Positions 5,516-54,156 of a DNA stretch of 64,000 nt are shown here, one piece after another (within the stretch, counting starts at the first letter, position 1; each line of letters begins with the position of its first letter). The notes under the pieces are model-generated. The model saw only the letters and a list, made by a program, of their open reading frames with translations. It was not told where the DNA came from and ran no database searches. The stretch is from IMG/VR virus record IMGVR_UViG_3300042484_002457, positions 124,001-188,000 of that record, one strand, 5' to 3'. Position numbers and translations under genes: made by a program. The stretch is from a virus.

Positions 5516-5657
5516 AGTATTTTCTCCTTTAGTCCTCTCGGACCTGTTATTTACGGGCCTGCGCAACATGATAACACAACATTGATTTAACAACACCTGA
5601 TCACTAAATACTGACCTGGCGGCGTATTCCACAAAAACCCTGCTCTTGGTCAATCGA

Positions 5658-5664
5658 CTAAATA
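5658..5664 (+). promoter_or_regulatory. late-promoter-like CTAAATA box
   Basis: CTAAATA ends 5 bases before the ATG at 5670. The core TAAATA matches the T4 late -10 element, and the start would fall at the initiation codon. A second CTAAATA lies at 5604-5610. Confidence 0.45.
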
Positions 5665-5669
5665 TACGC

Positions 5670-6278
5670 ATGGACCGAGAACTCTTTAAAGACCACACTG
5701 ATTACTGGCAAGTTGCTGACAACATCCGCGACATCTACATGAGCGACGGCAGTTTGACCACGCTGTTGGATTTTGAGCGTGTGCTGGACGAAGTTGATAT
5801 CTACGCATTTAAAAACTGGGAAATTGGCGAGCTTGTGGCCGGTCCTGAAATTGGCCGATATCGTGTGAGCTGCACATTTATGTGGCCACTCAAACTCATG
5901 CCCGATCCACGTGGCGGACGCAGACTGTTGAACTACGACTGCGAAATAAGTTATCAACGCAAAGAAATAAAGATTCCTGTAAAGATCACAGACCCCAGTG
6001 ATTATCGCCCTGGCACCAAAAAAGCCAAGTTAATGACACAGGAAGTGTGGCTGGTGGAAATTGTCATGCCCAAGGCCTTGATGAATGATATTCGCACTGG
6101 ATCAATTGAAATGGAAGATGAGGATATTGATCTTGAAGAACTGGATCAGGCCTATGAGCAAGATCTAGATCAGGAAGCCAATCAGAGTGATGAGGCTGCC
6201 GATGATGCACAGGCCAGCCTGGACACACCCAACCCTGGAGGCGCACCAGCTGCTGCGCCAGGACAACCACAGATTTAA
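5670..6278 (+). CDS. conserved phage protein, 202 aa, acidic/Pro-rich tail
   Basis: I recognise this only as an uncharacterised family of T4-like aquatic phages. It has a structured N-terminal part (MDRELFKDHTDYW.. and a GPEIGRYRVSCTFMWP strand region) followed by an acidic, Gln/Ala/Pro-rich disordered tail from about residue 150. The start at 5670 fits the family N-terminus and the CTAAATA box just upstream; an in-frame GTG at 5646 adds eight residues. It is the first gene of a block leading into the QGVAEG polyprotein, so a virion or assembly role is plausible but unproven. Confidence 0.65.
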   Translation: MDRELFKDHTDYWQVADNIRDIYMSDGSLTTLLDFERVLDEVDIYAFKNWEIGELVAGPEIGRYRVSCTFMWPLKLMPDPRGGRRLLNYDCEISYQRKEIKIPVKITDPSDYRPGTKKAKLMTQEVWLVEIVMPKALMNDIRTGSIEMEDEDIDLEELDQAYEQDLDQEANQSDEAADDAQASLDTPNPGGAPAAAPGQPQI

Positions 6279-6280
6279 TC

Positions 6281-6847
6281 ATGAATACTTTTAATCCTTT
6301 TGACCCTGCCCGCCCCTTGCTGCTGGAAGGCCTACAGTACAAAGATCTTGACGGCATCATGAAACCCACAGTGCACGTGGATGAATTTTCTGCCAAACTG
6401 GGCGAAGATGCTGATGTGATTGTACTCAGCTTTTTTGTGCGCGACAAGCAAGCAGCACGTGATCTAATGGGCTGGTTTGAAAAAGGCTATGATTTTGTAC
6501 TAGATGCTGATGTCAGCCCCGGTGAAATCAAGCCTGGCCGGTATCTGGTGTATGTGGAAATTCGTCGCCGCAGCGCAGTACCTCGCCATGTTCAAACCTT
6601 GTTGGATGATCTTTCTACCCTGACAGAATTTGAGCCTGAAGACTGGCAGTTTGTGTATGAGGATGGTGACTTTGGCTGGGACCAGGATGAATTTATCAAA
6701 CGCATTCCACTAACACCCGACGCATATAGAGCCAGAAATGAATCTGATCTAAATGAAATGAGAGCTGCTGCCGGCTTGAAGCCAGTGCAGATTCATACTC
6801 CGCGGAGTGATGTCAAGGCATTAATGGCCGCAGCAGGGATATTGTAA
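6281..6847 (+). CDS. conserved phage protein, 188 aa
   Basis: This is an uncharacterised soluble protein. It begins two bases after the previous stop, and its own stop shares a base with the start of the polyprotein (TAATG at 6845-6849), so the three genes form one unit. The N-terminus MNTFNPFDPARPLLLEGL ends in LLLEG, resembling an x-x-E/G prohead-protease site. The middle has VIVLSFFVRDKQAARDLMGWFEKGYDFVLDADVSPGE, broken here by description: a strand, a helix around AARDLMGWFEKG, then DADVSPGE. No enzyme motif is seen. Confidence 0.6.
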   Translation: MNTFNPFDPARPLLLEGLQYKDLDGIMKPTVHVDEFSAKLGEDADVIVLSFFVRDKQAARDLMGWFEKGYDFVLDADVSPGEIKPGRYLVYVEIRRRSAVPRHVQTLLDDLSTLTEFEPEDWQFVYEDGDFGWDQDEFIKRIPLTPDAYRARNESDLNEMRAAAGLKPVQIHTPRSDVKALMAAAGIL

Positions 6848-9800
6848 TGTTACTAAACCACTTGTTTGAAAACCGCCCCGGGGGCACACTAAACGAATTT
6901 GCACCTGCAGGTGGTGGTGGCAATCGCATGGGTGGTGGTCGTATTGGCGGTGGCGGAGATGACGATGGTGCCGGTGATGATCCCTACAAGTATCCACAGC
7001 CAGACCACTATAGCCGTAGCATAGACTTCTTTGGACGGTTTGAAGCAGATCATTTTGACGACGAAGAGTTTGACAAAGCCACAGGCGAGTTCCGGGGCTA
7101 CTGGGACGATCAAGAGGGCCGTGATCAGATTGCCTATTTCAAGTTTGACAATCCCCGACGCACCGGAGACGACGACCCAGGCATGGGCTGGTACTACGAG
7201 CCACAAAATGAAAGCATGGCAGAAGCACAAACTGAACCTGAGCAGCAACAGATTGATGCTAACCGTCAAGCAGCACTGCGTCGTGAGCGTGAACCTGGTG
7301 GCAGCGAAAAGATTGATGCCCAGCTGGCACAACAAAATGCACAGCGCCAAGAATATGAACGCACTGGCAACTTCTGGCTCAAGCGCAAAGACACACAAGA
7401 ACACATCAGTGATGAGTTTGTGGGCAAAGCTGCCGCAGTGGCTGCTGCACAAGACTTGTTGAAACAACAACCTGATTTGCGTGGCAACATTGTGATCACA
7501 GCATACGGCCCAGGCGAAACTCAGGGTGTGGCGGAAGGCTTCAAGAACATGTACGCAGAGTTCTCTGGATACGGAAACTACATGCAAGGTCGTGCTGTCA
7601 ATGTATTCAACAAAGCTGGCTTGGAGATTGTCAGCAAAGATTACACAGAAGATGATGACATACAAACCTATGTTGTAAAGGGTGACCGCCAAGCTATCGA
7701 AAAAGCCGGCGAGTTCTTGGAACGCAATCCCGAACAGTTTGGCGGATATCACTTTGTCAAGCAAGGTGTGGCGGAAGGCGGATATCCTGAAGTTGACCAT
7801 ATGCCAGGTCCCACTATAAAGAGAACACAGACTGGTTGCAAAAGATGCCACGGCAAGGGCTATGTTTATAAAACACCAGACGGTGAAGTTCATCCTATGA
7901 ATCGTCCAGATGCCAAGAAATACAAATGTGGCAAATGTGATGGTATTGGGTTTGTCAAAGTAGCAGAGCAAGGTGTGGCGGAAGGCTCACAGGATAATGG
8001 AATTAGTTTTCGTGTACAAAAGGGTAAAAATAAATTTGTCACTACCATGACAGTTAATAACGAGCAGGTGGGTGTATACCAATATGATGCTACTACAGGT
8101 CGTAGCATAGCCGAGGTTTATCCAGAATTCAAGGGCAAAGGATTTGGTAAATTATTGGTTTTACATGCTATCTATACCGCGGCCAAATTAGGATTAGATT
8201 TCCAAGAAGATGAATCAAGAACTGCTGAGTATGATAATGTGTTAGACAGTTTGAGTAGCAACAGTTATATTGTAGATGATGATGGATATTGGTACGTTAC
8301 TGGTGAGGGCGAACAATACCTACAACAATCATTAAAACAAGGTGTGGCGGAAGGCAAGAGAATGAAAACTGCCAGCGGCATGTATCGTGACCAGCATACT
8401 GGAGTTGCCTACAGAGGAAAAACAGGACAAGATGGAAACGATAGTTATATGACTCCTGATTACTTGATTCAAAAGTATCAAGAGCGTTTAGCGCAAATTG
8501 CATCAGGTCCATACAAGCGTCCTAAAGAAGTAGCACAACTAAAATCTCGTATTGCTAAACTACAAGGTCAGCAAGGTGTGGCGGAAGGTGCTCCTATTGT
8601 AGTGGCACAGGCTCCTATTCATATTCGCAATCCTAAGAAACAACAAAGTCGTCAAGACAAGCCACTTACAGCATACCAACAAGGTGTTGCAGCACAGGGC
8701 AAGCCATACAAGAATCCGCATCCGTTTGATCCTAAAGCAGGCGCAGATGTGAACTACGACCATAATCAATATCGTGCTGGATATAAGAAGCAAGGTGTGG
8801 CGGAAGGCTCCTTGGAAGAAATAGACCGTAGAGGATTCTTAAAAGGCATGGGTGCAGCGGCAGTAGCAGGCACTGGACTATCACCTATGCCTGCGAAAGC
8901 CTGGTTTTTCTTTATAATACCATTACCTAACACTAACCCAGATGCAGCGGCAAATGCATGCATGCCTCCGACTGTCCAGGTCGGACAACAGGTAAATTTT
9001 CAAAACGAATTACAGGTCATACAAAAAATACACGGAGTCTCTAATAGATGCCAAAATCCAAATATGCCTGTGGCTGTCACTATTGGCAAACCTGAACCCG
9101 TTCAAGCACCAGTAGTAAAAGAACCTCCTAATCAAAAAACACCTCCGAATTACGCATCAAGAATTATAGCTAGAATAAGACCAAACATTCATTATTCTGG
9201 CGACACCTCAGGTAATCCACGTGCAGAAATTGAAGTTCGAGTATCTTCTGATGGTACAATTACCGGAGTAAAATTAGAAAAATCAAGCGGTAACTCAGAG
9301 TGGGACCAGGCTGTAATTGATGCTGTTAAAAAAACCCAAACAATGCCTTTAGATTCTACTGGTAATGTTCCATCTATTATGATAATGGGTTTTAGACCAA
9401 TGGATAATCAATCTTTACAAAGAGAAAGCGTTGACCAAGGTGTGGCGGAAGGCGGTGAGAAAGATCGTCAATGGTCCAACAAAGACATGGAGAGGCTGCG
9501 TGTTGCTACCAGAGACTTTGATGATATAATGGCATCTGATGGACCTGACCAAACCAAGCACGATTTAATTAAGAAGCGAATTCAAACAAAACCAATGGCA
9601 GGTCCTAAAGGCGTATTGCCGGAGGAAGGTGTGGCGGAAGGCGGATACAGCGGTATCGACGATACTGACACCGTGGGCTTTAGCGTCAACAGTGAACGGG
9701 CATACAATGCAGTAATGGCTCGCTTTGGCGACCAGATTGATCATGACGAAACTTCGGGTATTCTGTATGTGCCTGCACGTTTGTGGCCCAAAGTAGAAAT

Positions 9801-10014
9801 GGTAGCTTTTGATGCCGACGGCGAAGGTGCTACACAAACTGATGGCTTGGACGAAGGCGAGAAAGTTGGCAACATGGATGCTGATGCATTTGATGCTGCC
9901 ATGGCCCGCCTTAAAAAGCTAGCAGGCGCAGGACCAATGAAAACAGTTTATGACCCCAACAAACGTGTGTATCGTAATGTGCCCACAGCAGTTCAACCAG
10001 GTACCAAAAAATGA
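6847..10014 (+). CDS. modular QGVAEG-linked polyprotein (candidate capsid cargo), 1055 aa
   Basis: Eight copies of the hexapeptide QGVAEG (one is EGVAEG), at residues 226, 306, 375, 498, 576, 649, 864 and 927, separate nine unrelated segments. Segment 1 is Gly/acidic with a Gln-rich helix. Segment 3 has two CxxCxGxG zinc knuckles (CKRCHGKG, CGKCDGIG) as in DnaJ. Segment 4 looks like a GNAT acetyltransferase core (VYPEFKGKGFGKLLVLHAIY). Segment 7 starts with a twin-arginine signal (DRRGFLKGMGAAAVAG) and continues into a TonB/TolA-like C-terminal domain (AEIEVRVSSDGTITGVKLEK). The others are unrecognised. V-A-E-G resembles T4 prohead-protease sites, so the protein may be cut into separate cargo proteins. 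A 360-aa antisense frame over this gene is a shadow. Confidence 0.85.
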   Translation: MLLNHLFENRPGGTLNEFAPAGGGGNRMGGGRIGGGGDDDGAGDDPYKYPQPDHYSRSIDFFGRFEADHFDDEEFDKATGEFRGYWDDQEGRDQIAYFKFDNPRRTGDDDPGMGWYYEPQNESMAEAQTEPEQQQIDANRQAALRREREPGGSEKIDAQLAQQNAQRQEYERTGNFWLKRKDTQEHISDEFVGKAAAVAAAQDLLKQQPDLRGNIVITAYGPGETQGVAEGFKNMYAEFSGYGNYMQGRAVNVFNKAGLEIVSKDYTEDDDIQTYVVKGDRQAIEKAGEFLERNPEQFGGYHFVKQGVAEGGYPEVDHMPGPTIKRTQTGCKRCHGKGYVYKTPDGEVHPMNRPDAKKYKCGKCDGIGFVKVAEQGVAEGSQDNGISFRVQKGKNKFVTTMTVNNEQVGVYQYDATTGRSIAEVYPEFKGKGFGKLLVLHAIYTAAKLGLDFQEDESRTAEYDNVLDSLSSNSYIVDDDGYWYVTGEGEQYLQQSLKQGVAEGKRMKTASGMYRDQHTGVAYRGKTGQDGNDSYMTPDYLIQKYQERLAQIASGPYKRPKEVAQLKSRIAKLQGQQGVAEGAPIVVAQAPIHIRNPKKQQSRQDKPLTAYQQGVAAQGKPYKNPHPFDPKAGADVNYDHNQYRAGYKKQGVAEGSLEEIDRRGFLKGMGAAAVAGTGLSPMPAKAWFFFIIPLPNTNPDAAANACMPPTVQVGQQVNFQNELQVIQKIHGVSNRCQNPNMPVAVTIGKPEPVQAPVVKEPPNQKTPPNYASRIIARIRPNIHYSGDTSGNPRAEIEVRVSSDGTITGVKLEKSSGNSEWDQAVIDAVKKTQTMPLDSTGNVPSIMIMGFRPMDNQSLQRESVDQGVAEGGEKDRQWSNKDMERLRVATRDFDDIMASDGPDQTKHDLIKKRIQTKPMAGPKGVLPEEGVAEGGYSGIDDTDTVGFSVNSERAYNAVMARFGDQIDHDETSGILYVPARLWPKVEMVAFDADGEGATQTDGLDEGEKVGNMDADAFDAAMARLKKLAGAGPMKTVYDPNKRVYRNVPTAVQPGTKK
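7522..7539 (+). repeat. QGVAEG linker repeat, copy 1
   Basis: CAGGGTGTGGCGGAAGGC, in frame; it differs from the consensus CAAGGTGTGGCGGAAGGC at one base (CAG for CAA). It separates polyprotein segments 1 and 2. Confidence 0.9.
7762..7779 (+). repeat. QGVAEG linker repeat, copy 2
   Basis: Exact consensus CAAGGTGTGGCGGAAGGC. It precedes the segment with two DnaJ-like zinc knuckles. Confidence 0.9.
7969..7986 (+). repeat. QGVAEG linker repeat, copy 3
   Basis: Exact consensus 18-mer. It separates the zinc-knuckle segment from the GNAT-like segment. Confidence 0.9.
8338..8355 (+). repeat. QGVAEG linker repeat, copy 4
   Basis: Exact consensus 18-mer following the GNAT-like segment. Confidence 0.9.
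8572..8589 (+). repeat. QGVAEG linker repeat, copy 5
   Basis: Differs from the consensus only in the last base (GGT for GGC), a silent change. Confidence 0.9.
8791..8808 (+). repeat. QGVAEG linker repeat, copy 6
   Basis: Exact consensus 18-mer, directly before the twin-arginine signal of the TonB-like segment. A degenerate relative (QGVAAQG) lies in the preceding segment near 8680. Confidence 0.9.
9436..9453 (+). repeat. QGVAEG linker repeat, copy 7
   Basis: Exact consensus 18-mer. It ends the AT-richer TonB-like segment. Confidence 0.9.
9625..9642 (+). repeat. EGVAEG linker repeat, copy 8
   Basis: GAAGGTGTGGCGGAAGGC, giving E in place of the first Q; the other 15 bases are exact. It precedes the last segment. 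Confidence 0.9.
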
Positions 10015-10166
10015 GAAGCACTGCTAACGGTCGTGTTATAAGAACACTGCCTGGCGCTACAAAACCTGAAGCTCCTGTACAACCTCAGCAGCCCCAGGCC
10101 CGGATCAAACGAGCTATGCCAATAGCAGCGCTACTACAAAGTCATAGATTCAGACTAAACCCATGA
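10011..10166 (+). CDS. short basic Pro-rich protein, 51 aa
   Basis: This short frame overlaps the polyprotein stop as ATGA at 10011 and the next start as ATGA at 10163, which is strong contextual evidence that it is translated. It begins MRSTANGRVIRTLPGAT and is rich in Pro, Gln, Arg and Ala with a basic end. It has no known motif. It may be a small DNA-binding or capsid-internal peptide, but that is a guess. Confidence 0.6.
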   Translation: MRSTANGRVIRTLPGATKPEAPVQPQQPQARIKRAMPIAALLQSHRFRLNP

Positions 10167-10597
10167 GAAATTTTATCAATCTAATAGAAGCAGTGCAATC
10201 TGGTTGCCCACCAGCTACCCAGAGCATTGAATTGAATCTAAAAAATCGTCAAAAAGCCATTGAAGAATACCATTATGGTCCGTTGAATCCCAACGAGCCC
10301 AATCAAGAATACTGGGCTGAATTGGCTGACAAATGGAACACCAATGACATTGAATCAGTCAAAAACAACCGCTGCGGAAATTGTGCTGCATTTGATATCA
10401 CAGACAAAATGCTAGACTGTATTGCCAAAGGCATTGGCTCAGAGCCTGGGTCAGACCCACAAGGCACAATTGATGCTGGCGATTTAGGCTATTGTAAGTT
10501 TTTGAAATTCAAGTGTGCTGCACTGCGCACCTGTGATGCCTGGGTTGAAGGCGGCCCTGTAACAGATAAAAAAGATGAGAGCACAAGAATTCGTTGA
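10163..10597 (+). CDS. cargo-like protein with conserved Cys cluster (HiPIP-like), 144 aa
   Basis: The C-terminal half has a six-Cys pattern: RCGNCAAFD, MLDCI, LGYCKFLKFKCAA, RTCDAWVEGG. This resembles the short high-potential iron-sulfur or zinc modules I associate with aquatic phage proteins. The N-terminus MRNFINLIEAV resembles the T4 capsid-targeting pattern, with a candidate cut after LIE. It overlaps both neighbours. Its metal and function are not known; a redox module carried in the capsid is one possibility. Confidence 0.6.
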   Translation: MRNFINLIEAVQSGCPPATQSIELNLKNRQKAIEEYHYGPLNPNEPNQEYWAELADKWNTNDIESVKNNRCGNCAAFDITDKMLDCIAKGIGSEPGSDPQGTIDAGDLGYCKFLKFKCAALRTCDAWVEGGPVTDKKDESTRIR

Positions 10598-10871
10598 AGC
10601 TGATCTGGGTACTAACCCACGTAGAGCAGCCCGACAAGGGTCAAGACCTCCACGCGGGCACAACCCTGTGCCGCGCTATCGTAGTAAAAAAGCCGAGCCT
10701 GACCAGGAACAACTGGACGAGCTGATGTTCATGAACATGAGTCCCTGCAAAACTGACTGCTCGGGACACAGAGCAGGCTACAAATGGAGCAAGGATCGCG
10801 GCGGTGTCAGCACTGCGTCCTGGAGCGACAGCTTTAATCGCGGTGCTGAAATAGCCCGAGCAGGCTATTAA
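10575..10871 (+). CDS. cargo-like protein with MRAQEFVE N-terminus, 98 aa
   Basis: The N-terminus MRAQEFVEAD is nearly identical to the starts of the genes at 32476 and 33910. It resembles the T4 internal-protein leader MKTYQEFIAEA that is cut after the Glu. A basic Arg/Pro stretch follows. The C-terminal module (MFMNMSPCKTDCSGHRAGY, then SFNRGAEIARAGY) has two cysteines and a pattern I associate with other phage mosaic proteins. The start overlaps the previous gene by 23 bases. It ends just before a hairpin terminator. Confidence 0.65.
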   Translation: MRAQEFVEADLGTNPRRAARQGSRPPRGHNPVPRYRSKKAEPDQEQLDELMFMNMSPCKTDCSGHRAGYKWSKDRGGVSTASWSDSFNRGAEIARAGY

Positions 10872-21644: not shown

Positions 21645-23909
21645 ATGAATCCCACCGCCGAAATTGAACACATTGTTGAACAATCTGTAGCAATTGCTCA
21701 AACATTTCAACACGAATATGTCACAACCGAGCACCTGCTGCTGGCCATGGTTCGATATGCACCATTTCGAAAAACACTGGAGAATTTTGGTGTAGAAATT
21801 GACATGCTGGATCAAGACCTAACCAGTTATCTGAGTGGGTTACAAAATCTTGTTAAAGAAAATTCAGATCTAACACCCAAAAAGACCACGGCTCTGGAGC
21901 GTATTTTTAATCGTGCCAATGTGCAGGTGATGTTTACCGGGCGTAGACAAATGTCCCTGATTGATGTTTATCTTTCAATCATGGCTGAAGGCCACAGTCA
22001 CGCACAGTACTATCTCATGAGATACGGTGTGAAGAAAGTGGAATTTGTGGAGTTCTGGCAAAAGAACTATTCTGCCCAGGCCAGTGCCACTGGCATGAGT
22101 GTGAATCAAGCCAATGACATTCTCAACGAGTACTGCGTTGATCTCAGTGGTCGTGCTGCCAAGAACGAACTTGAGCCCATGATTGGTCGAGACACTGAAC
22201 TACAGGAAATGGTCACTGTGCTGGCACGACGCTTCAAGGCCAACGTGCTCATGGTAGGCGATCCTGGCGTGGGCAAGACTGCCATCATTGAAGGCCTGGC
22301 CCAGGAAATTCAAGCCGGTCGTGTGCCTGAGTTTCTCAAGGGTCACGAAGTATGGAGTTTGGAAATTGGCTCGCTGCTGGCAGGATCAAAGTATCGTGGT
22401 GATTTTGAGGAAAAGTTCAAGGCCGTGGTGTCAGCACTGGAAGCCAAGAAAAACTGTATCTTGTTTGTGGACGAAGCGCACACCATGAAGGGTGCTGGTG
22501 CAGGATCTAGCTCTAGCCTGGACTTTGCCAACATGCTGAAGCCGGCTATTACCAAGGGCAGTTTAAAAATCATTGCGTCAACCACCTGGGAAGAGTATTA
22601 CGAAAGCTTTGAAAAGGATCGTGCCCTGATGCGACGTTTCTATCGTCTCAGCATTGACGAACCTGATGCTGCGACCACAGAAAAGATTCTTATTGGACTC
22701 AGTCCACGCCTGGAACAGTTCCACAATGTGTTGATTGACACTGAAGCTATTACTGCTGCTGTGGACTTGGCCAATCGCTACATTCATGATCGCAAGAACC
22801 CTGACAAAAGTATTGACTTGATTGATGCTGCTTGTGCTCGGGAACGTGTGAAAGATGCAGGCTTGACAACCATCAACAAAGGCATGATTGAAGAACAGCT
22901 GAGCCGTGTGACCAGTGTGCCTGTAGACAAGTTACAGAACGAGCGCAGTGCCAAGATTGTGGAGCTAGAAGGCAATATCAAGCAACGGCTGTATGGACAG
23001 GATTCAGCTGTGGACACTGTGCTGGAACGTGTGTACATTAACTTTGCTGGTATTGGCAACGAGCGACGCCCCATGGCATCATTCCTGTTCTTGGGCCCCA
23101 CAGGCACAGGCAAAACTGAATTGGCTCGACTGCTGGCCGACAACTTGGACATGAAGCTGTTGAAATATGACATGAGCGAGTTCCAAGAGCGTCACAGTGT
23201 GAGTGGACTTATTGGTGCTCCCCCAGGTTACGTGGGCTTTGAAGACGGCAACATCGGCGGCGGCAAGCTGATTGCAGACATCAGCAAGAATCCTTTTTCA
23301 ATTATCTTGTTTGACGAGATTGAAAAGGCACACCCTGACGTTGCCAACATCATGCTGCAAATGCTAGACGATGGTGTGCTGACCAGTTCAAATGGCAAGA
23401 AAGTCAGCTGCAAGAACACCATTATCATCATGACGTCTAACCTGGGCGCACGTGATAGTGAAAGCAATGCAATTGGCTTTGGATCACAAGAAAAAACTGG
23501 TGAGGACGATCGTGCACTCAAAGAGCACTTCCGCCCCGAACTGCGAAATCGTATTGATGCTATCTGCAAGTTTGGGCGCCTGGACCAACTGGCCATTAAA
23601 AAGATTGTGCTGAAGTTTGTGGCTGAATTGCAAACCAGTCTTGGCAACAAAAACATACGACTCACTGTGACCGAAGCCATGGTAGAACACTTGGCCGAAA
23701 AAGGTTATGATCCCAAGATGGGTGCGAGGCCTCTGGGTCGCAAGATTGACGAGTTACTGCGTGTGCCACTCAGCAAGCGTATCTTGTTTGATCGCCTGGA
23801 CAACTGTGATATCACAGCTGACTTGGTGGAAGGTGGGGTCAAGTTTGATATTGCAACACACGAGACCAGCTTGCTAGACAGTGACGGAATTATTCGTTTC
23901 CCAGCATGA
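21645..23909 (+). CDS. clpA: ClpA-like AAA+ unfoldase, 754 aa
   Basis: Layout and length match bacterial ClpA (758 aa in E. coli): a Clp N-domain (VEQSVAIAQTFQHEYVTTEH), AAA module 1 with Walker A GDPGVGKT and LFVDEAHTMKGAG, and AAA module 2 with Walker A GPTGTGKT and ILFDEIEKAHPDV, then the C-terminal GARPLGR sensor-2 motif. There is no ClpB-type coiled-coil insert. It would unfold proteins for a protease such as host ClpP; whether a ClpP-docking loop is retained I cannot tell. Its own consensus promoter suggests early, strong expression. Confidence 0.92.
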   Translation: MNPTAEIEHIVEQSVAIAQTFQHEYVTTEHLLLAMVRYAPFRKTLENFGVEIDMLDQDLTSYLSGLQNLVKENSDLTPKKTTALERIFNRANVQVMFTGRRQMSLIDVYLSIMAEGHSHAQYYLMRYGVKKVEFVEFWQKNYSAQASATGMSVNQANDILNEYCVDLSGRAAKNELEPMIGRDTELQEMVTVLARRFKANVLMVGDPGVGKTAIIEGLAQEIQAGRVPEFLKGHEVWSLEIGSLLAGSKYRGDFEEKFKAVVSALEAKKNCILFVDEAHTMKGAGAGSSSSLDFANMLKPAITKGSLKIIASTTWEEYYESFEKDRALMRRFYRLSIDEPDAATTEKILIGLSPRLEQFHNVLIDTEAITAAVDLANRYIHDRKNPDKSIDLIDAACARERVKDAGLTTINKGMIEEQLSRVTSVPVDKLQNERSAKIVELEGNIKQRLYGQDSAVDTVLERVYINFAGIGNERRPMASFLFLGPTGTGKTELARLLADNLDMKLLKYDMSEFQERHSVSGLIGAPPGYVGFEDGNIGGGKLIADISKNPFSIILFDEIEKAHPDVANIMLQMLDDGVLTSSNGKKVSCKNTIIIMTSNLGARDSESNAIGFGSQEKTGEDDRALKEHFRPELRNRIDAICKFGRLDQLAIKKIVLKFVAELQTSLGNKNIRLTVTEAMVEHLAEKGYDPKMGARPLGRKIDELLRVPLSKRILFDRLDNCDITADLVEGGVKFDIATHETSLLDSDGIIRFPA

Positions 23910-31300: not shown

Positions 31301-32476
31301 AACACCAAGACTGGCTATATTGAATTCCGTAGCCCCGGTGGTGACTGGCTGGACAGCAATTTTGACAAGATTGAAAACACCCTGTTGCGTTTTACTGTGG
31401 CCCTGAGTGCTGCTATCAATCCAGAAGCATACCGCAAAGAATACTTGACCAAGCTGTACAAGTTGTTGTCCGAAGGCATGGCGGACAAGAGTGACGTAAA
31501 CATTATTCAGTTGTTCTCCAACTACTCAGCTGGTGAACTGGACAAAGCTGCTCTAATCCGTCAAGTGCGTCAAAAGCAACTGGCTCGCAATGTTGCCAAG
31601 GGCAAGGCCACAGGCAAGATGTGGTGGAATGTTTCTAGACCAGGATACATGGGCAGCATCGAAGTTGTTGCTAACAGCAAAGAAGAAGCCATTGATGTTG
31701 CATTACAGCCGAGCAATTATCCAAACTGGGCAAGTGCTAGAAATACATTACAGGCTAAACCATTACGTCCATACCAAGAAAAGCCAAGCGCACCTGCACA
31801 ACCTGCTGCGGACAATCAAGGCAACTGGGGTATCTGGTTGGATGCTGCAGAACGCTTTGTCCGAATACCTCGCACCGAAACTGGTGGCGACGGGCAAGCC
31901 TTGCGTAGATTCTCTAGCCAAGCGGCTGCAATGGCGTTCTTGGAGCGAACTCGAGAAGAGAATCCACTAATGAGAAGAGACATCAGCATTCGCGAAATCC
32001 CTGCAGACTATCAGTGGCCACCCGTTGCACCGGCTGTTAACCGCAATACGCTGACACCAACCGGTCCTGGACCTTGGGAAGTGTTTAGAATCAGTGACGG
32101 GTCAAGTGTAGCAGAGCTGGGGCAGACCAACCGCATGAGTGCTGAAGTAGAAGCTCGCGGAGTGATTGATCAACGTGGCGAAGCACCTGAACTGTATGGA
32201 GTAAGAACTCGTCAGTCTGACGCAGCACAAGGTGGCACAGTTGATGTAGGGGGAGAAACACCTGCAACAGCACCGCAGACACTGACTCGTCCCGGACAAG
32301 GCCAACAACAGTTCACAGGCACATGGCGAGTGTTAGATCCTGAAGACCGTGAGATCTATCGCTTTAGTGGTGTGGGCAACAACCAATCAGATGCCAATCG
32401 TGTGGCCCTGAACTGGATGCGTCAAAATCCTGGTCGCATGCAAGCAGGTGTCACAGTGGTCCCGGAGATGACCTAA
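28355..32476 (+). CDS. giant mosaic enzyme: nucleotidyltransferase + zinc metallopeptidase + amidoligase-like, 1373 aa
   Basis: Several domains occur in one chain. Residues about 60-160 contain a polymerase-beta-type nucleotidyltransferase signature (SGSNAAY..SDVDLHLVVD). At about 336-345 lies a zincin motif HELAHVRQHE. From about 605 to 1070 an amidoligase-like (COOH-NH2 ligase) region shows GMEFEMIVP, a GLHINISVP core at about 893 and YIEFRSPGGDWLD. The C-terminus has about four related 50-65-residue units, each starting with W (MWWNVSRPG, NWGIWLDAA, GPWEVFRIS, GTWRVLDPE). Short conserved linkers such as SDVYDWYKLGSHI occur between. A virion-packaged effector is possible. There is no capsid-targeting-like N-terminus. 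The stop overlaps the next start. Confidence 0.8.
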   Translation: MNIEELDSFNLADAVKFHNQLNPRLWDQREHLKPDVHAKLMEIARDFQEFLGVPDLEVKDITVSGSNAAYNYTPHSDVDLHLVVDMPDAKNSEVFRELFDAKKFQYNAEHDIRIGGYDVELYVQDAEQEHHSQGIYSLLQNRWISVPKRRKPDVDDISVKSKYQDVGHRIEAAIRGGDAAQMEDVWNKLRVMRKQGLEREGEFAPENIVFKMLRNNGTIGNLKQARQAVRDRELSLAEVNRPKQRVHYGFVSESPDGVNPSTKMFLEEDDAESLVTEFIFTTADKLGIKRIPKIHIHTNDDWSRENNSFGMFVPDTYELHVSLINRHPMDVMRTIAHELAHVRQHEIKPVKPGDGETGSDVENEAHAIAGIVMRDFASSHPEYFEKPAVSESSGYIPTRAQAQDPRFKMALTVDIKPGQTGKEANKLALQTDAQGRPALLMKTANLREGRMPQPSQGQGQYRDLNKPLGPETPPTMPAGTVKVDVSDVYDWYKLGSHISNLKGLGKHDFGAGPPSTIISFGDEETEHKYIQDLEKTGLTTTDIDPKDPKQPPGMKRQKTDPTYNVAEDDIVESLRQEFALLEDEYISEIKMTGKNLRAEAAQTGAQAGMEFEMIVPNVETEELDPEYEPDWDQDQRTRSFSDIRDFFHDGDYNGRREADNLMEEIQNEYEEWQAEQTDEAWARDGVDYMRDFVEVNDLFDREEAIDTARDEVIDANPDLPPESKDFQDLLRARLDELQEQFVLESFEDQGRIYNDALQAFAEEQRDEYDERSFLDDKYPMMTDIQSNFDISWPHYYNINDGQDSGEVDVDQVADEFGSYMGKPVNASRQYHGGRREAGTYVVEPDGSLEGDNPGDGGLEFVSPPMPIDEMISDLNKVKAWADKTGCYTNDSTGLHINISVPNYSIDKLDYVKLAILMGDEYILDLFGRSGNTYAKSAMGKIKSALKQKPEASAQIMDLMKQGLDGAATKAIHTGITDKYTSINTKTGYIEFRSPGGDWLDSNFDKIENTLLRFTVALSAAINPEAYRKEYLTKLYKLLSEGMADKSDVNIIQLFSNYSAGELDKAALIRQVRQKQLARNVAKGKATGKMWWNVSRPGYMGSIEVVANSKEEAIDVALQPSNYPNWASARNTLQAKPLRPYQEKPSAPAQPAADNQGNWGIWLDAAERFVRIPRTETGGDGQALRRFSSQAAAMAFLERTREENPLMRRDISIREIPADYQWPPVAPAVNRNTLTPTGPGPWEVFRISDGSSVAELGQTNRMSAEVEARGVIDQRGEAPELYGVRTRQSDAAQGGTVDVGGETPATAPQTLTRPGQGQQQFTGTWRVLDPEDREIYRFSGVGNNQSDANRVALNWMRQNPGRMQAGVTVVPEMT

Positions 32477-33462
32477 TGAGAGCACAAGAATTTGTAACAG
32501 AACTGTTTGAGCCAGGCAAAAAGTGGCAGTGGAGTTTTACTGGCAGTGAAGAAGCAGTAGCAGTATTTCATGTTGGTGAAGTGCCTTACATGTTCCATGC
32601 ATATGGCGCCGTCGGTGAATGGGAAGCAGAGTTCAAGCGGTATGGTAACAAACTAGATCGATCGCAAAAGTTTGGACTAACTGGCACTGGTAACTCAGCA
32701 GAAGTCATGAGCACAGTGGTTGACATCATGCGAGCGTTCTTGGAAAAATACAAGGACAAGATACAAGTGCTGACATTCAGTGCCAAGGAAGATTCCCGTC
32801 AGGGTCTATATGCCCGAATGGTCAAACGACTGCTGCCCGACTGGACCATGAAACAATCCGGTGAGCACTTTGTTCTTGTGGCTCCCAAACAAGATGTCAC
32901 AGAAACATGGGGTGTTGAAAAGTATCCTATTCCGCTGCCAATTGGGCAGTACCTTGCTGTTGGTAGTGATGAGTTTGCTCCGCCGGGCAACTATGCCAGT
33001 GCAGACGATCTTGTGGATGATGTGTACGACTTGATAGATGCAGGTGTTGAGCCCACAGTGGTTGCAGTTGATCCCAAGACTCTGTTGGCCACACAAGACT
33101 GGCTTAGTAACGAAGGCGGCGGCGATCCCTTGTTTGACGAGTACCCGGACAAGCCTGTGATATACAAGAAGGCAGGCAAGCTGTACATCCTTGACGGGCA
33201 TCACAGAACCACACGAGCTTGGAAAGCTGGTAGACCTATTTCAGTATACCTGTTTGGGGACGATCAACAAAACGAACTGGACGAAAACTTTGCAGATGGC
33301 CGAAACCCACAAGACAAAGGTGATTCAAAGCGTCACGGTATCAATACCAAAGCATCAGTTAGTAGTCTACGCAAAACTGCCAAACAAGGCGGCCGCAAAG
33401 GACAACTGGCACACTGGCTGGCTAACATGAAGTCTGGTAGAGCAAAGGCCAAACGAAAATGA
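32476..33462 (+). CDS. cargo-like two-domain protein with ParB-like fold, 328 aa
   Basis: The N-terminus MRAQEFVTELFEPG matches the capsid-targeting-like pattern seen at 10575 and 33910. An alpha/beta domain follows (VLTFSAKEDSRQGLYARMV, resembling an acyltransferase helix region). Then comes a ParB/sulfiredoxin-like segment with YILDGHHRTTRAW at about residues 236-248. The end is a basic Lys/Arg-rich module, KRHGINTKASVSSLRKTA then LAHWLANMKSG, resembling the ends of other mosaic proteins. It overlaps the giant gene's stop (TAATG). Confidence 0.65.
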   Translation: MRAQEFVTELFEPGKKWQWSFTGSEEAVAVFHVGEVPYMFHAYGAVGEWEAEFKRYGNKLDRSQKFGLTGTGNSAEVMSTVVDIMRAFLEKYKDKIQVLTFSAKEDSRQGLYARMVKRLLPDWTMKQSGEHFVLVAPKQDVTETWGVEKYPIPLPIGQYLAVGSDEFAPPGNYASADDLVDDVYDLIDAGVEPTVVAVDPKTLLATQDWLSNEGGGDPLFDEYPDKPVIYKKAGKLYILDGHHRTTRAWKAGRPISVYLFGDDQQNELDENFADGRNPQDKGDSKRHGINTKASVSSLRKTAKQGGRKGQLAHWLANMKSGRAKAKRK

Positions 33463-44785: not shown

Positions 44786-47449
44786 ATTAGCTACGTAGAC
44801 AGTTTATTTGATCGTGAGCACGATCGCATTCATGTTGTTGAGCGCCGTGATGGTGTTCGCAAATATCAAGAATACCCGGCCAATTATGTTTTTTATTACG
44901 ACGACCCACGTGGCAAGTTCAAAAGCATTTATAGTACGCCAGTATCAAGATTCAGCACACGCAACAACAAAGAGTTTCGCAAAGAAGTTCGCATGCATTC
45001 CGGCAAGCAACTTTACGAAAGCGACATCAACCCTATCTTTAGGTGCTTGGAAGAAAACTACAAAGATGTCGATGCTCCAGAACTGCACACAGCATTTTTC
45101 GACATTGAAGTAGATTTTGATAAAGTTCGGGGTTTTAGTCCTGTTGAAGATCCATTCAATCCTATCACTGCAATTTCTGTTTATCTAGATTGGTTGGATC
45201 AGTTAATAACCTTGGCGGTGCCGCCCAAGGGCCTGAGTTGGGAAACTGCGCAAGATTTGGTCAAAGAATTTGATAATACTATTCTGTTTGATAACGAAGC
45301 AGACATGATCAAAACTTTTCTTGATCTCATTGACGATGCAGACGTACTGTCAGGTTGGAACTCGGAAGGTTATGACATTCCGTACACTGTAAACAGAACC
45401 ATACGTATTCTCAGCAAAGACGATACTCGTAAGTTTTGTTTATGGGGGCAGTTGCCCAAGAAGCGCATGTTCGAACGCTTTGGTGCTGAACAAGAAACTT
45501 ATGACTTGGTGGGCCGTGTTCACATGGACTATATGCAGTTGTACCGCAAGTACACTTATGAAGAACGGCACAGCTACAGCTTGGACGCCATTGCTGAATA
45601 CGAGCTAGGTGAACGCAAAACACAGTTTGAAGGTACACTGGATTCCTTGTATAATCAACACTTCAAGACATTTATTGAATACAACCGTCAAGATACCTTG
45701 TTGTTAAACAAGCTGGACAAGAAATTGCGATTCCTGGAACTGGCCAGCGAACTGGCACATGCCAACACTGTGCTACTACAGACCACCATGGGCGCTGTGG
45801 CAGTTACCGAACAGGCCATTATCAACGAAGCACACGAACGTGGCATGGTTGTGCCCAATCGCAAACAGCGACTGGACAGTGAAGACACACAAGCAGCTGG
45901 AGCATATGTTGCATATCCCAAAAAAGGCATGCACGAGTGGGTGGGATCAGTAGACATTAACTCACTGTATCCGTCGGCCATTCGAGCCATGAACATGGGC
46001 CCCGAGACTGTGATTGGACAGTTGCGACCCATCATGACTGACAGGTATATTGCAGACAAAATGGCCAAGAACCGTGGCAACTTTGCTGACGCCTGGGAAG
46101 GCTTGTTTGGATCGCTTGAATACACTGCTGTGATGGAACAGAATCGTGGCACTGAAATCATCATCGACTGGGAGTCAGGCCAAGAAACCAAGCACAGTGC
46201 CGCTGAAGTTTGGAACTTGATGTTTGACAGTAACCAGCCTTGGATTTTGACTGCAAACGGTACTATTCTAAGTTTTGAGAAACGAGGTATCATTCCTGGT
46301 TTGCTGGAGCGTTGGTATAGTGAACGTAAAGAAATGCAGGCCAAGAAAAAAGATGCCACTGATCCCAAAGAGATTGCGTTCTGGGACAAGCGACAACTGG
46401 TCAAAAAGATTAACTTGAACAGCTTGTATGGTGCTATTTTGAATCCAGGTTGCAGATTCTTTGACAAACGCATTGGACAGTCAACCACACTCACTGGTCG
46501 AGCAATTGCTAGACACATGGATGCTTACATCAATGAATGTGTAACTGGCAAGTACGACCACCTGGGCGAAGCAGTGATTTATGGTGACACAGACTCATGC
46601 TATTTCTCAGCCTGGCCGGTGCTACAGAAGGAAGTTGAACAAGGACGTATGGAGTGGAGCAAGGAAACTTGTATTGCACTGTATGATTCAATTGCAGACC
46701 AAGTCAACGAAAGCTTTCCTACATTCATGGAACAGGCATTTCATTGTCCCAGAGACATGGGCTCATTGATCAAGTGTGGTCGAGAAATGGTTGCAGATCG
46801 CAGTTTGTTTATCACAAAGAAACGCTATGCCGTAAACATCATTGATCTAGAAGGCAAACGACTAGATGTCAATGGCAAGATTGGCAAGACCAAGGCCACT
46901 GGCTTGGACTTGAAACGTAGTGATACACCCAAAGTTATTCAAGACTTCTTGTTGGAAATTCTAAATAGTCTGTTGGCAGGCGCTGACAAAGATACTATTG
47001 TAGAAAAAATTCGTGAGTTCAAATACAAGTTTATGGAACGCCCGGGTTGGGAAAAAGGCTCACCCAAGCGTGTGAACAACTTGACCAAGTACGCTGCTGA
47101 CGAAGCACGTGAAGGCAAAGCAAACATGCCTGGTCATGTGCGAGCAGCACTGAACTGGAACAACCTGCGTAGAATGAACTCGGACAACTACAGTATGCAG
47201 ATTGTGGATGGTATGAAAACCATTGTGTGCAAGCTCAAGAGCAATGCACTGGGCTGGACGTCAATTGGTTATCCCACAGATGAACAACGTTTGCCTGCTT
47301 GGTTTACAGAATTGCCGTTTGATAACGACCTCATGGAAGCCACTGTTGTGGACAAAAAAGTTGACAACTTGTTGGGTGTACTAGAATGGGATCTAGCCTC
47401 AGCAACCAATACTGAAAATACATTTACATCATTGTTTAGCTTTGAATGA
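44786..47449 (+). CDS. 43: family B DNA polymerase gp43, apparent AUU start, 887 aa
   Basis: All hallmarks are present: exonuclease motifs AFFDIEVDF, SGWNSEGYDIPYT and YNRQDTLLLN; polymerase motifs A (VDINSLYPSAI), B (KKINLNSLYGAI) and C (IYGDTDSCYF). The length matches T4 gp43 (898 aa). The first ATG in frame is at 44993, but 69 conserved residues precede it (SYVDSLFDR.., YPANYVFYYDDPRGKF). The frame upstream contains no ATG, GTG or TTG before its stop. A GGAG site seven bases upstream points to ATT at 44786 as the initiation codon. It overlaps the next gene as ATGA. Confidence 0.95.
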   Translation: MSYVDSLFDREHDRIHVVERRDGVRKYQEYPANYVFYYDDPRGKFKSIYSTPVSRFSTRNNKEFRKEVRMHSGKQLYESDINPIFRCLEENYKDVDAPELHTAFFDIEVDFDKVRGFSPVEDPFNPITAISVYLDWLDQLITLAVPPKGLSWETAQDLVKEFDNTILFDNEADMIKTFLDLIDDADVLSGWNSEGYDIPYTVNRTIRILSKDDTRKFCLWGQLPKKRMFERFGAEQETYDLVGRVHMDYMQLYRKYTYEERHSYSLDAIAEYELGERKTQFEGTLDSLYNQHFKTFIEYNRQDTLLLNKLDKKLRFLELASELAHANTVLLQTTMGAVAVTEQAIINEAHERGMVVPNRKQRLDSEDTQAAGAYVAYPKKGMHEWVGSVDINSLYPSAIRAMNMGPETVIGQLRPIMTDRYIADKMAKNRGNFADAWEGLFGSLEYTAVMEQNRGTEIIIDWESGQETKHSAAEVWNLMFDSNQPWILTANGTILSFEKRGIIPGLLERWYSERKEMQAKKKDATDPKEIAFWDKRQLVKKINLNSLYGAILNPGCRFFDKRIGQSTTLTGRAIARHMDAYINECVTGKYDHLGEAVIYGDTDSCYFSAWPVLQKEVEQGRMEWSKETCIALYDSIADQVNESFPTFMEQAFHCPRDMGSLIKCGREMVADRSLFITKKRYAVNIIDLEGKRLDVNGKIGKTKATGLDLKRSDTPKVIQDFLLEILNSLLAGADKDTIVEKIREFKYKFMERPGWEKGSPKRVNNLTKYAADEAREGKANMPGHVRAALNWNNLRRMNSDNYSMQIVDGMKTIVCKLKSNALGWTSIGYPTDEQRLPAWFTELPFDNDLMEATVVDKKVDNLLGVLEWDLASATNTENTFTSLFSFE

Positions 47450-51768: not shown

Positions 51769-52485
51769 ATGAAATATTATGTGTATATACTATCTGACCC
51801 AAGAAACAACGTTCCTTTTTATATAGGTAAGGGCAAAGGCAAAAGATCTATGTCCCACCTTAAGGAAACAAAAGAAACTACAATCAACATTAGAAAATAT
51901 AATAAGATACAATCAATTTTCAGTGAAGGTCTGACACCCTTGATTTCTTACTATGCCACTGACTTGTCTGAGCAAGATGCTTATGAATTAGAAGCTTCTC
52001 TTATTAAACAATACGGACGCAAAGATTACGATGCTAACGGAATCTTACTTAACATTTGTGAAAACAATCGCCCTCCTGGGCACGATAATTTTTTAACCAA
52101 CAACCCTGGATTGAGGATGAAAGGGAAAACGTATGAGGAGATCTACGGTGAAGAAAAAGCCAAACAGTTAAAACTTCAAAGAACATTATCTTCTTCTGTA
52201 AGAGAAGTTACACAAGAGACTAAAGACAGAATGAAAGAATCTGCCCTTGTCAAGATGGCTAATGGATACAAAATGCCGTCAAGAAAAGGAAAGAGAGATT
52301 CTGAAGAGACACGTTTGAAAAAATCTTTGGCACACAGAGGCAAAATTAAGCCGTCGATGAGCGAAGAGACAAAGAAAAAAATTTCAGACACAAAGCGAAA
52401 AAATAGTAAAAAATTTTTAAACATTCAATATTTAAGGAAGTACCATGGCCAAGCCTACATTCAAACCCAACCAGCGCCTGACTGA
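51769..52485 (+). CDS. GIY-YIG homing endonuclease, 238 aa
   Basis: The GIY-YIG core is clear: YYVYILSDPRNNVPFYIGKG, followed by KGKR and the Glu-containing YELEASLIKQYGRKD. Downstream there are NUMOD3-like Lys-rich repeats (NNPGLRMKGKTYEEIYG; AHRGKIKPSMSEETKKKI). I chose the ATG at 51769 because a GAGGAAA site precedes it and the fold begins there. Its 3' end overlaps the next gene, including that gene's binding site, which suggests insertion between two coupled genes. It is AT-rich relative to neighbours. Confidence 0.9.
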   Translation: MKYYVYILSDPRNNVPFYIGKGKGKRSMSHLKETKETTINIRKYNKIQSIFSEGLTPLISYYATDLSEQDAYELEASLIKQYGRKDYDANGILLNICENNRPPGHDNFLTNNPGLRMKGKTYEEIYGEEKAKQLKLQRTLSSSVREVTQETKDRMKESALVKMANGYKMPSRKGKRDSEETRLKKSLAHRGKIKPSMSEETKKKISDTKRKNSKKFLNIQYLRKYHGQAYIQTQPAPD

Positions 52486-52672
52486 GATCTTTGAAGATCT
52501 TGAAGTGTTCTTGGAATTCTGCCAAGACTTTGGGTATCGTTACAACGAGAGCGATCTCTACAACTTCAAGAGCTATGCTTGGCAACAGTTTACCAAGCAT
52601 AGCACCGGCAAGAACGCCAAGAACATGTGGAGTGAAGACGCTCGACGCTTTGCAGGATACCGTCCAGCATGA
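52445..52672 (+). CDS. hypothetical protein, 75 aa
   Basis: The ATG has an AAGGAA site and lies within the end of the endonuclease gene. The helical protein (LTEIFEDLEVFLEFCQDFGY; AWQQFTKHSTGKNAKN) has no recognisable motif. It ends overlapping the next gene as ATGA (52669). The function is unknown. Confidence 0.6.
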   Translation: MAKPTFKPNQRLTEIFEDLEVFLEFCQDFGYRYNESDLYNFKSYAWQQFTKHSTGKNAKNMWSEDARRFAGYRPA

Positions 52673-52923
52673 GCGCCGCTCGAGAGAAAGACCAAGCGGA
52701 CTTTGATCTCGAGCGATTCGTTGACATGTTCGACGAGGCCCTGACCAGTCAGGATCCGCGAGTGATTGAAACGCTACGCAATCTCTTGATGATGGTAACA
52801 CTAACACGACCGGAAACTCGCGAGGAACACGGTCGTAGGTCTGGACCGCTGAGAAGATTGTTTGAGGACGTGAACGATCTAAATAGAAGCATGAGTCGCA
52901 TGCAGGAAGAAGTTTTACTATAA
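52669..52923 (+). CDS. hypothetical acidic helical protein, 84 aa
   Basis: It overlaps the previous stop. The charged helical sequence (DLERFVDMFDEALTSQDPRV; EDVNDLNRSMSRMQEEVLL) suggests a small coiled-coil protein, possibly structural or regulatory. No motif is recognised. Confidence 0.55.
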   Translation: MSAAREKDQADFDLERFVDMFDEALTSQDPRVIETLRNLLMMVTLTRPETREEHGRRSGPLRRLFEDVNDLNRSMSRMQEEVLL

Positions 52924-52941
52924 TCAAACAAAGGAAGTTTT

Positions 52942-54156
52942 ATGCGAAAGTTAATTTATATGGGACTCGAACAACTGGAGTCAAGATACACACTACAGCT
53001 AACTGAGTGGAATCGACGGGTATTTGATCGTCGAGGGCTCGATGTTGTCTATGTCCCTGGGCTAAACATTGATAATACTAAACAGATTTCTGTTGGACAA
53101 GTTTTAGATGCTCATGGTCGAAGTTATTTTTCTATGAGCCAGATGATGAACTTAGTTCAGATGATGCGTAATGGAGAAATTACAAACGAAGATGTAGTGT
53201 ATTTCGAGGACATGTTTACTCCTGGCTTCGAAAGTCTTGGTTACATCATGAATCAGATTCCCCGCGAGCAGTGCCCACGCATCTATGTTCGCTGTCTAGC
53301 ACAAGCTATTGATCCTGATGACTTTGTGCATGTTTGGGGCATGGCTCGATGGATGAACTTGTATGAACAAATGGTCAATGAGATGGTGGTTTTCTCGGGG
53401 GGTGCAGTATTGGCAACCAATGAGGAAATGGTCGCGCACATGCGCATCGCTGGATGGACTGCTCCAATCTACAACATTTCTGGGTTGGCATTTGGAAAAA
53501 CAGAAGTACTGGAGCGGATCGGTGGGAAAGAAAACATCCGGCCGTTTGATTCGCGTCCGCGGAGGGTGGGTTTCGCAGCTAGGTTCGACCAAGAGAAACA
53601 GCCTGGTTTTTTCATGGACCTTATTGAAATGTACGGTGAGCTCACCAATGAACCATGTGAGTTTGCAATTTTCAGTGGGGGGCCACTCAGGTCTAATAAT
53701 CCAGAGTACGTGGAGAGAGCCCGCCGCATGGAATCCAAAGGCAAACTCCAGATTTACGAAAATCTAAACAAGAATCAGTATTATGATTTACTTAACAATA
53801 CTCGTGTTCTCTTTAATTGTGCTCTTCAAGACTGGGTATCTAACACTGTATCCGAAGCCGACACTGTGGGGTGCAATGTTCTTTACCCTGCATATCGTAG
53901 CTTTCCTGAAACTTTTGCAAATGATCCTAACCGACTATATGTTCCTTGGAGCATAGATGACGCTTATCATAAGATACAAAATTTATTGCGAGAACCGCAT
54001 CACAACATGGGTCTCATCTCGGATTGGAACAACGCCACTATTGACCGTATTGTTGATATTATTACTGGTCGAGGTGAGCAATGGAATCGGGCGGGCAATC
54101 GATATCGTGACCACGTTGCTCACGAAAAATATCAAGTTGTAAAGATTGAGGAATGA
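52942..54156 (+). CDS. glycosyltransferase family 4-like (GT-B) protein, 404 aa
   Basis: The C-terminal half has a GT-B donor-binding layout: RRVGFAARFDQEKQPGFFMD, then FAIFSGGPLRSNN, then the ESKGKLQIYENLNKNQYYDL region and NCALQDWVSNTVSEADTVGC as the E-x7-E-like site. It probably transfers a sugar from a nucleotide donor. The start has an AAAGGAAG site. It overlaps the epimerase gene as ATGA, so sugar supply and transfer are coupled. Confidence 0.7.
   Translation: MRKLIYMGLEQLESRYTLQLTEWNRRVFDRRGLDVVYVPGLNIDNTKQISVGQVLDAHGRSYFSMSQMMNLVQMMRNGEITNEDVVYFEDMFTPGFESLGYIMNQIPREQCPRIYVRCLAQAIDPDDFVHVWGMARWMNLYEQMVNEMVVFSGGAVLATNEEMVAHMRIAGWTAPIYNISGLAFGKTEVLERIGGKENIRPFDSRPRRVGFAARFDQEKQPGFFMDLIEMYGELTNEPCEFAIFSGGPLRSNNPEYVERARRMESKGKLQIYENLNKNQYYDLLNNTRVLFNCALQDWVSNTVSEADTVGCNVLYPAYRSFPETFANDPNRLYVPWSIDDAYHKIQNLLREPHHNMGLISDWNNATIDRIVDIITGRGEQWNRAGNRYRDHVAHEKYQVVKIEE

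Follow-up and report, generated by a model that had tools for sequence, protein, structure and literature searches.

A viral gene of exchangeable modules joined by an 18-bp in-frame linker: a putative polyprotein of T4-type internal head proteins

The array gene and its surroundings

The window, a stretch of 64,000 nt (positions 124,001 to 188,000 of IMG/VR record IMGVR_UViG_3300042484_002457), lies on a viral contig of 209,543 bases and carries a 1055-aa ORF in which G-V-A-E-G occurs eight times, seven times as QGVAEG and once as EGVAEG (Table 1). The sites separate nine segments of 225, 74, 63, 117, 72, 67, 209, 57 and 123 aa. None of 5000 residue shuffles of the protein contained more than one GVAEG, and the initial annotation, according to which eight QGVAEG-type hexapeptides cut a 1055-residue protein into nine unrelated segments, is borne out. 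Site-to-site spacings in the gene range from 189 to 645 nt, each different and each divisible by 3; the array is therefore not a tandem repeat. At least two further sites in the protein appear decayed, SMAE/A at 7213 and GLDE/G at 9844 (here and below, a slash marks the module boundary or putative cut). Both fall at module ends in relatives, so that the protein is probably made up of 11 modules when decayed sites are counted.

Table 1. Coordinates of the array gene, its sites and modules, and associated genes in the window.
Feature	Position	Strand	Basis
Virion structural (head) gene, phrog_12928	5646..6278	+	E 3e-27; syntenic upstream of L041 and L198 arrays
Virion structural (head) gene, phrog_13138	6281..6847	+	E 2e-17; immediately precedes the L041 and L198 arrays
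Array gene, 1055-aa modular polyprotein (putative)	6847..10014	+	ORF; beads-on-a-string AlphaFold2 model
Capsid-targeting-like leader MLLNHLFE/N	6847..6873	+	Looser class, as MFVDDLFD, MFVNELF and MNLNNLFE starts of other arrays
Decayed site SMAE/A within segment 1	7213..7227	+	Module boundary in relatives: L061 NESVAEG/WKNVV; L004 begins with next module
Site 1, QGVAEG	7522..7539	+	Motif
Module 2, folded alpha+beta, pLDDT ~80-95	7540..7761	+	93% identity in L086 and L202, there behind QGITEG
Site 2, QGVAEG	7762..7779	+	Motif
Module 3, Cys-rich, DnaJ-zinc-like (weak)	7780..7968	+	Weak similarity
Site 3, QGVAEG	7969..7986	+	Motif
Module 4, GNAT-like, pLDDT >90	7987..8337	+	Weak Pfam GNAT; relative L077 matches PF00583, E 5e-7
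Site 4, QGVAEG	8338..8355	+	Motif
Module 5, helical hairpin	8356..8571	+	AlphaFold2 model
Site 5, QGVAEG	8572..8589	+	Motif
Module 6, disordered	8590..8790	+	L117 relative directly behind QGVAEG
Site 6, QGVAEG	8791..8808	+	Motif
Module 7, Tat signal and TonB/TolA C-terminal domain	8809..9435	+	PF13103, E 2e-18; PF10518
Site 7, QGVAEG	9436..9453	+	Motif
Module 8, helical	9454..9624	+	Sequence comparison, AlphaFold2 model
Site 8, EGVAEG	9625..9642	+	Motif
Module 9, probable inner decayed site GLDE/G at 9844-9858	9643..10011	+	Relatives align to first part only or second part only
Single cargo candidate, leader MRNFINLIE/A, HiPIP-like	10163..10597	+	Annotation of homologues as high potential iron-sulfur protein; L027 has it as an array module behind QAVAE/D
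Single cargo candidate, leader MRAQEFVE/A	10575..10871	+	Leader
Distant single cargo candidate, leader MRAQEFVTE, DUF6934	32476..33462	+	Leader; weak ParB-like nuclease match

In the AlphaFold2 model, made from an alignment without the partial rows that were misplaced in the full-length alignment, modules 2, 4, 5, 7 and 9 form folded beads, and each of the eight sites falls within, or borders on, a stretch with pLDDT below 50. A Foldseek search with the full model returned nothing at E<=0.001; the best rows include acetyltransferase-like folds (7e-3), which are not counted as evidence. No peptidase domain was found in the protein with Pfam. Across the arrays, 157 internal modules fall into 116 families with a median length of 73 aa. 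Pfam matches among the modules include Tat signals (4), GNAT (2), ParB, nucleotidyltransferase, DnaJ, TonB and zinc-ribbon, with DUF6934 and ParB_N also occurring as modules, and most modules are without a Pfam match. Because few have a known function, we infer rather than observe that they act as effectors.

Additional observations concern genes at greater distance and other contig regions. The product of the HiPIP-like gene behind the array is possibly an electron-transfer protein packaged in the head; the HiPIP annotation of its relatives comes from spring-water phage records. Segments related to the distant DUF6934 product occur in 35 ORFs elsewhere, and window positions 21645-23909 encode an ATP-dependent protease family protein (phrog_4871, E 8e-238). 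Contig G000 carries, at 60484-67222 (L132:484-7222), genes for CsgG (curli secretion, E 7e-52), a FecR protein, a fatty acid desaturase and a CHASE2-adenylate/guanylate cyclase, a host-like envelope and signalling set that is unusual in a phage and may come from a chimeric assembly. A TctC-type receptor (E 6e-10) and a Gram-negative porin (Porin_4, E 5e-28) at 203321-206335 (L136:16321-19332) suggest that the host of this phage is Gram-negative, perhaps Burkholderiales-like. By eye, the N-termini of ORFs at 46039-46689, 52381-53034, 109522-110178 and 191942-192502 of the same contig resemble GIY-YIG homing endonucleases, which are possible agents of recombination.

The linker as protein site and as DNA

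The linker is nearly fixed as DNA too (CAAGGTGTGGCGGAAGGC, with the rare Ala codon GCG). The eight window copies all have the same 14-nt core, GGTGTGGCGGAAGG, a coincidence with a probability of ~3e-18 under local codon usage; GCG and GTG make up 8% and 21% of their synonymous sets in the genes considered, yet both are fixed in the core. Within the 209,543-base contig the core is found eight times, each time inside the array gene. At least 120 IMG/VR stretches contain the exact 17-mer, almost always in frame; their contigs are up to 374 kb long. A synonymous-free scan with AARCARGGNGTNGCNGARGG, run to avoid the bias of an exact-motif scan, added 78 loci beyond the exact 17-mer set, and 88 of its 124 distinct matches carry the exact core versus 0.6% expected from codon usage. 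In 257 Gb of cellular genomes the 18-base version matches 26 single places, about the chance level. The window protein gave no tblastn match in the 50,697 phage records of INPHARED, and QGVAEG was not found in the open-access papers searched (subscription papers lay outside the search).

What selection keeps at the site was read from a set with up to 3 mismatches to the linker, drawn from 198 viral loci and the window. It comprises 527 matches, of which 523 lie, in the QGVAEG frame, within ORFs no shorter than 100 aa. Nonsynonymous changes in these 523 copies number 100 at Q, 38 at the first G, 27 at V, 32 at A, 4 at E and 103 at the last G. The changes at V lead to M, L or I in 26 of 27 cases, and the four amino-acid changes at the P1 Glu codon stand against 32 silent ones. 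The synonymous excess is marked at E (P ~1e-26) and V (~3e-8), with the other codons near neutral, although the copies are related by descent, so that the P values overstate independence and indicate strength only. Homologues behind decayed sites retain [VLIM]xE at the boundary, e.g. MAEG, ITEG, VSEG and VVEG. The T4 prohead protease gp21 cuts after Glu in L/I-x-E (PMC9026906); P3 of the linker is Val versus L/I in the T4 sites. Judged by these substitutions, the residues spared in the linker, V(M/L/I)-x-E, are those that gp21 reads, in agreement with the earlier suggestion that V-A-E/G fits a gp21-type site.

The same sites mark where neighbouring sequences part company. Among 509 sites compared with their 90-nt flanks, 139 pairs are alike upstream only, 118 downstream only and 3 on both sides, that is, 257 one-sided versus 3 two-sided pairs, and flank identity drops from ~0.9 to 0.28 exactly at the edge of the 18-mer. 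The orthologues L177 and L178, whose DNA is 91-97% identical, are set apart by two whole extra in-frame modules between MAEG and RGFSG. Arrays of differing content directly follow one and the same pair of head genes in L041, L198 and the window. As these alignments read, the 18-mer is the exact junction of module exchange. In T4, recombination takes place at 6-10 bp of microhomology (PMC9391042).

Leaders, head genes and the proposed polyprotein

T4 IPII and IPIII start with MKTYQEFIAE/A and the array-type leader reads MRAxEFIxE; 10 leader residues are enough for packaging in T4 (PMC9026906). Loose leader regexes, with a background of 20% of controls, were dropped and replaced by a pattern tested against shuffles. 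This pattern is present in 50 of 128 array ORFs versus 1.5 after shuffling (39% vs 1.2%), in 175 of 1403 other ORFs at array loci versus 9.4 after shuffling, in 5 of 43 T4 ORFs and in none of the 148 ORFs from cellular control loci. Some 60% of the complete array ORFs fall outside it, and the start of the window gene, MLLNHLFE/N, misses the strict pattern and belongs to the looser class only.

Module starts are alike behind leader and linker. The Tat module of the window begins as MRATEFVTE/MDRRGFL in one setting and as QGVAEGSLEEIDRRGFL in the other, and its Tat start is common to L052, L174 and L195, where it stands behind QGVAEG, and to leader-led genes. A second module is found as MRATEFIVE/NSIPTIGINV and as QGVAEGSSNNIPTIGINV, and the HiPIP-like module as the single gene MRNFINLIE/A and the array link QAVAE/D. 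L077, the relative of window module 4, sits close behind the leader MRAQEFITE. On such pairs, leader and linker are equivalent, one module standing either as a single leader-led gene or as an array link. At array loci, the credible Tat signals have a site or leader no more than ~10 aa away. A Tat signal is functional only close to the N-terminus, and this placement therefore argues for cleavage.

Homologues of gp21 (phrog_207, E ~1e-60) and gp23 (phrog_138, E ~1e-100) occur jointly on 6 of 29 array contigs examined, and one of gp21 on 3 more (9 of 29 in total); all 29 are classed as linear and are often fragments. PHROG families were used in place of Pfam PF03420 and PF07068, which gave no match on the window's contig and were silent in the control search too. 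With the PHROG families, gp21 and gp23 were not detected on the window's own contig, a linear fragment. Both are present on contig G001; its array and that of the window have part of segment 1 in common, at 78%. Around the conserved active-site His and Ser, the gp21 homologues resemble T4 gp21, with GE(L/V)DHP...GVSSRG kept, and the gp23 of array phages has LAE/N, LAE/S, LKE/N or LLE/N near the T4 gp23 cut FLTE/A, in a gapped alignment that gives no exact superposition. By gp23 (~65%), the closest cultured relatives are Pseudomonas phage PA5oct and its kin. In PA5oct (MCP 65% identical), proteins starting MKINDIITEG and MKIKDILVES, of a like leader type, are recorded as detected in virions by ESI-MS/MS. 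The leader pattern matches 0 of 137 long PA5oct ORFs, and the leader-bearing ORFs of this phage, being short or deviant, are cited case by case.

We consider it probable that the product of the array gene is a polyprotein uniting internal (ejected) head proteins of the T4 type, that the prohead protease cuts it and that its modules are shuffled at the cut-site DNA. This reading draws on the site pattern, the in-frame rule, the leader, the equivalence of modules, the sharp junctions of exchange and the co-occurrence of gp21 and gp23, all directly visible in the sequences. The initial annotation had likewise proposed a packaged cargo polyprotein cut inside the capsid, and selection at the site, gp21/gp23 co-occurrence, leaders and leader-led single-gene modules lend it support at the level of sequence. 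The capsid-targeting-like leader would bring the entire chain to the core of the prohead, where a gp21-type protease would cut after Glu in V-x-E during head maturation, at LFE/N in the leader and VAE/G in the linkers. The freed modules would stay with the DNA and be injected at the next infection, and Tat-bearing modules, their signal exposed at a new N-terminus, could then be exported by the host Tat system. The 18-bp cut-site DNA would double as a homology patch for in-frame gain, loss and exchange of modules between phages, so that the payload would evolve by cassette shuffling; this route of recombination, like the functions of the modules, we infer.

Phages are known to have polyvalent proteins composed of unrelated domains, and the N4 virion RNAP is packaged unprocessed (PMC5512222), so the chain could be packaged and used uncut, with VAEG as a flexible linker only. 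This seems unlikely to us: a plain linker needs no P1 Glu and aliphatic P3 while other positions drift, mid-chain Tat signals would be useless, and modules start at the same point behind a leader-type E/ and behind VAE/G. We also doubt that the chain, though cut, is head core or scaffold like T4 gp67, gp68 or gp22, its pieces filling or leaving the head and its modules not being injected effectors. T4 core proteins too have many gp21 cuts (PMC9026906), and many modules are short; however, a scaffold would be expected to be conserved, and the modules are spread over the many families above, GNAT, ParB-like, nucleotidyltransferase, DnaJ, Tat and TonB among them, while a separate ORF occupies the gp22 position between gp21 and gp23 in array phages. 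A recombination or mobile DNA element translated by accident, with no protease role, would suit the excess of exact cores (88 of 124) and the exchange exactly at the 18-mer edges but is highly improbable given one frame in 523 of 527 copies, protein-level selection on V and E, and near-chance matches in cellular genomes.

Beyond the window, the polyprotein reading would extend, with reasonable though lesser confidence, to a delivery system not previously described and widespread among uncultured jumbo phages of the T4 type: the protease sites of packaged polyproteins would also be recombination sites, and the arrays would amount to a library of in-frame cassettes for injected proteins, some of which the host Tat pathway would export again. 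As far as found, one 18-mer serving as both protease site and exchange point is undescribed in the open-access literature. If true, the linker would be a sequence tag on hundreds of packaged modules, making 'unknown' phage genes searchable as a catalogue of injected proteins and revealing how the payload gets rearranged, and the arrays would serve as a natural model of how phage heads deliver several proteins.

Comparison with known systems

The nearest likeness is to T4 IPI, IPII, IPIII and Alt, which have the leader MKTYQEFIAE/A against MRAxEFIxE/ in the arrays and in which, as in the arrays, variable cargo shares the leader only (PMC3012670, PMC9026906, PMC12373910). Each of IPI-IPIII blocks one specific restriction enzyme (PMC12373910). 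Like these proteins, the arrays would fit a cut after Glu by a gp21 homologue. In T4, however, there is one protein per gene per leader, whereas the arrays hold nine or more modules per ORF, with their own cut site at each junction and shuffling at the DNA level; one mature cargo per gene is thus a T4 feature that the arrays lack.

Polyvalent proteins (Iyer et al. 2017; P1 DarA/DdrB) contain 2-15 unrelated domains in a chain that is delivered together with the genome and were likened to polyproteins by their authors (PMC5512222). Arrays, which would be packaged as well, share with them many unrelated domains per chain. Release of polyvalent domains is ascribed to an embedded peptidase (PMC5512222), whereas the array sites suit a protease acting in trans, that of head maturation. 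Fixed linker DNA is a feature of the arrays, none having been found described for polyvalent proteins (PMC5512222). Ejection proteins of the SPN3US/phiKZ type form a large head payload processed by the prohead protease (PMC10052503), as the array products presumably do, but there N-terminal propeptides are cut from single proteins and the arrays are chains of exchangeable cargo.

At the DNA level, PeSL promoter-stem-loop cassettes (Comeau 2014, cited in PMC5348500) resemble the 18-mer, being short stretches of conserved DNA that favour the shuffling of modules in T4-like phages; PeSLs are promoter-terminator motifs and thus lie outside reading frames, whereas the 18-mer is in frame and encodes the putative cut site. 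Integron-like gene cassettes have a recombinase and structured attC-type sites outside the frame, in contrast to the in-frame array site of only 18 bp, and no integrase was found among the scanned subset of window proteins.

In cultured marine T4-like cyanophages, proteins from the gp16-gp17 interval (S-SM2 SSM2_109, S-SCSM2R_117 and P-RSM1 CPPG_00199) share array modules (KKDACYHKVKSRYSVWPSAYASGALVKCRKVGAKNWG, at most 79% identity) standing behind VAE, INE or VNE. Unlike the arrays, these proteins have degenerate sites, with no invariant 18-mer seen, and are annotated without function. The gp16-gp17 interval of marine T4-like cyanophages is a known hot spot (PMC3037559), and four cyanophage loci with a modular gp16-gp17 protein (L263, L264, L265 and L266) could serve as a culturable model for the arrays.
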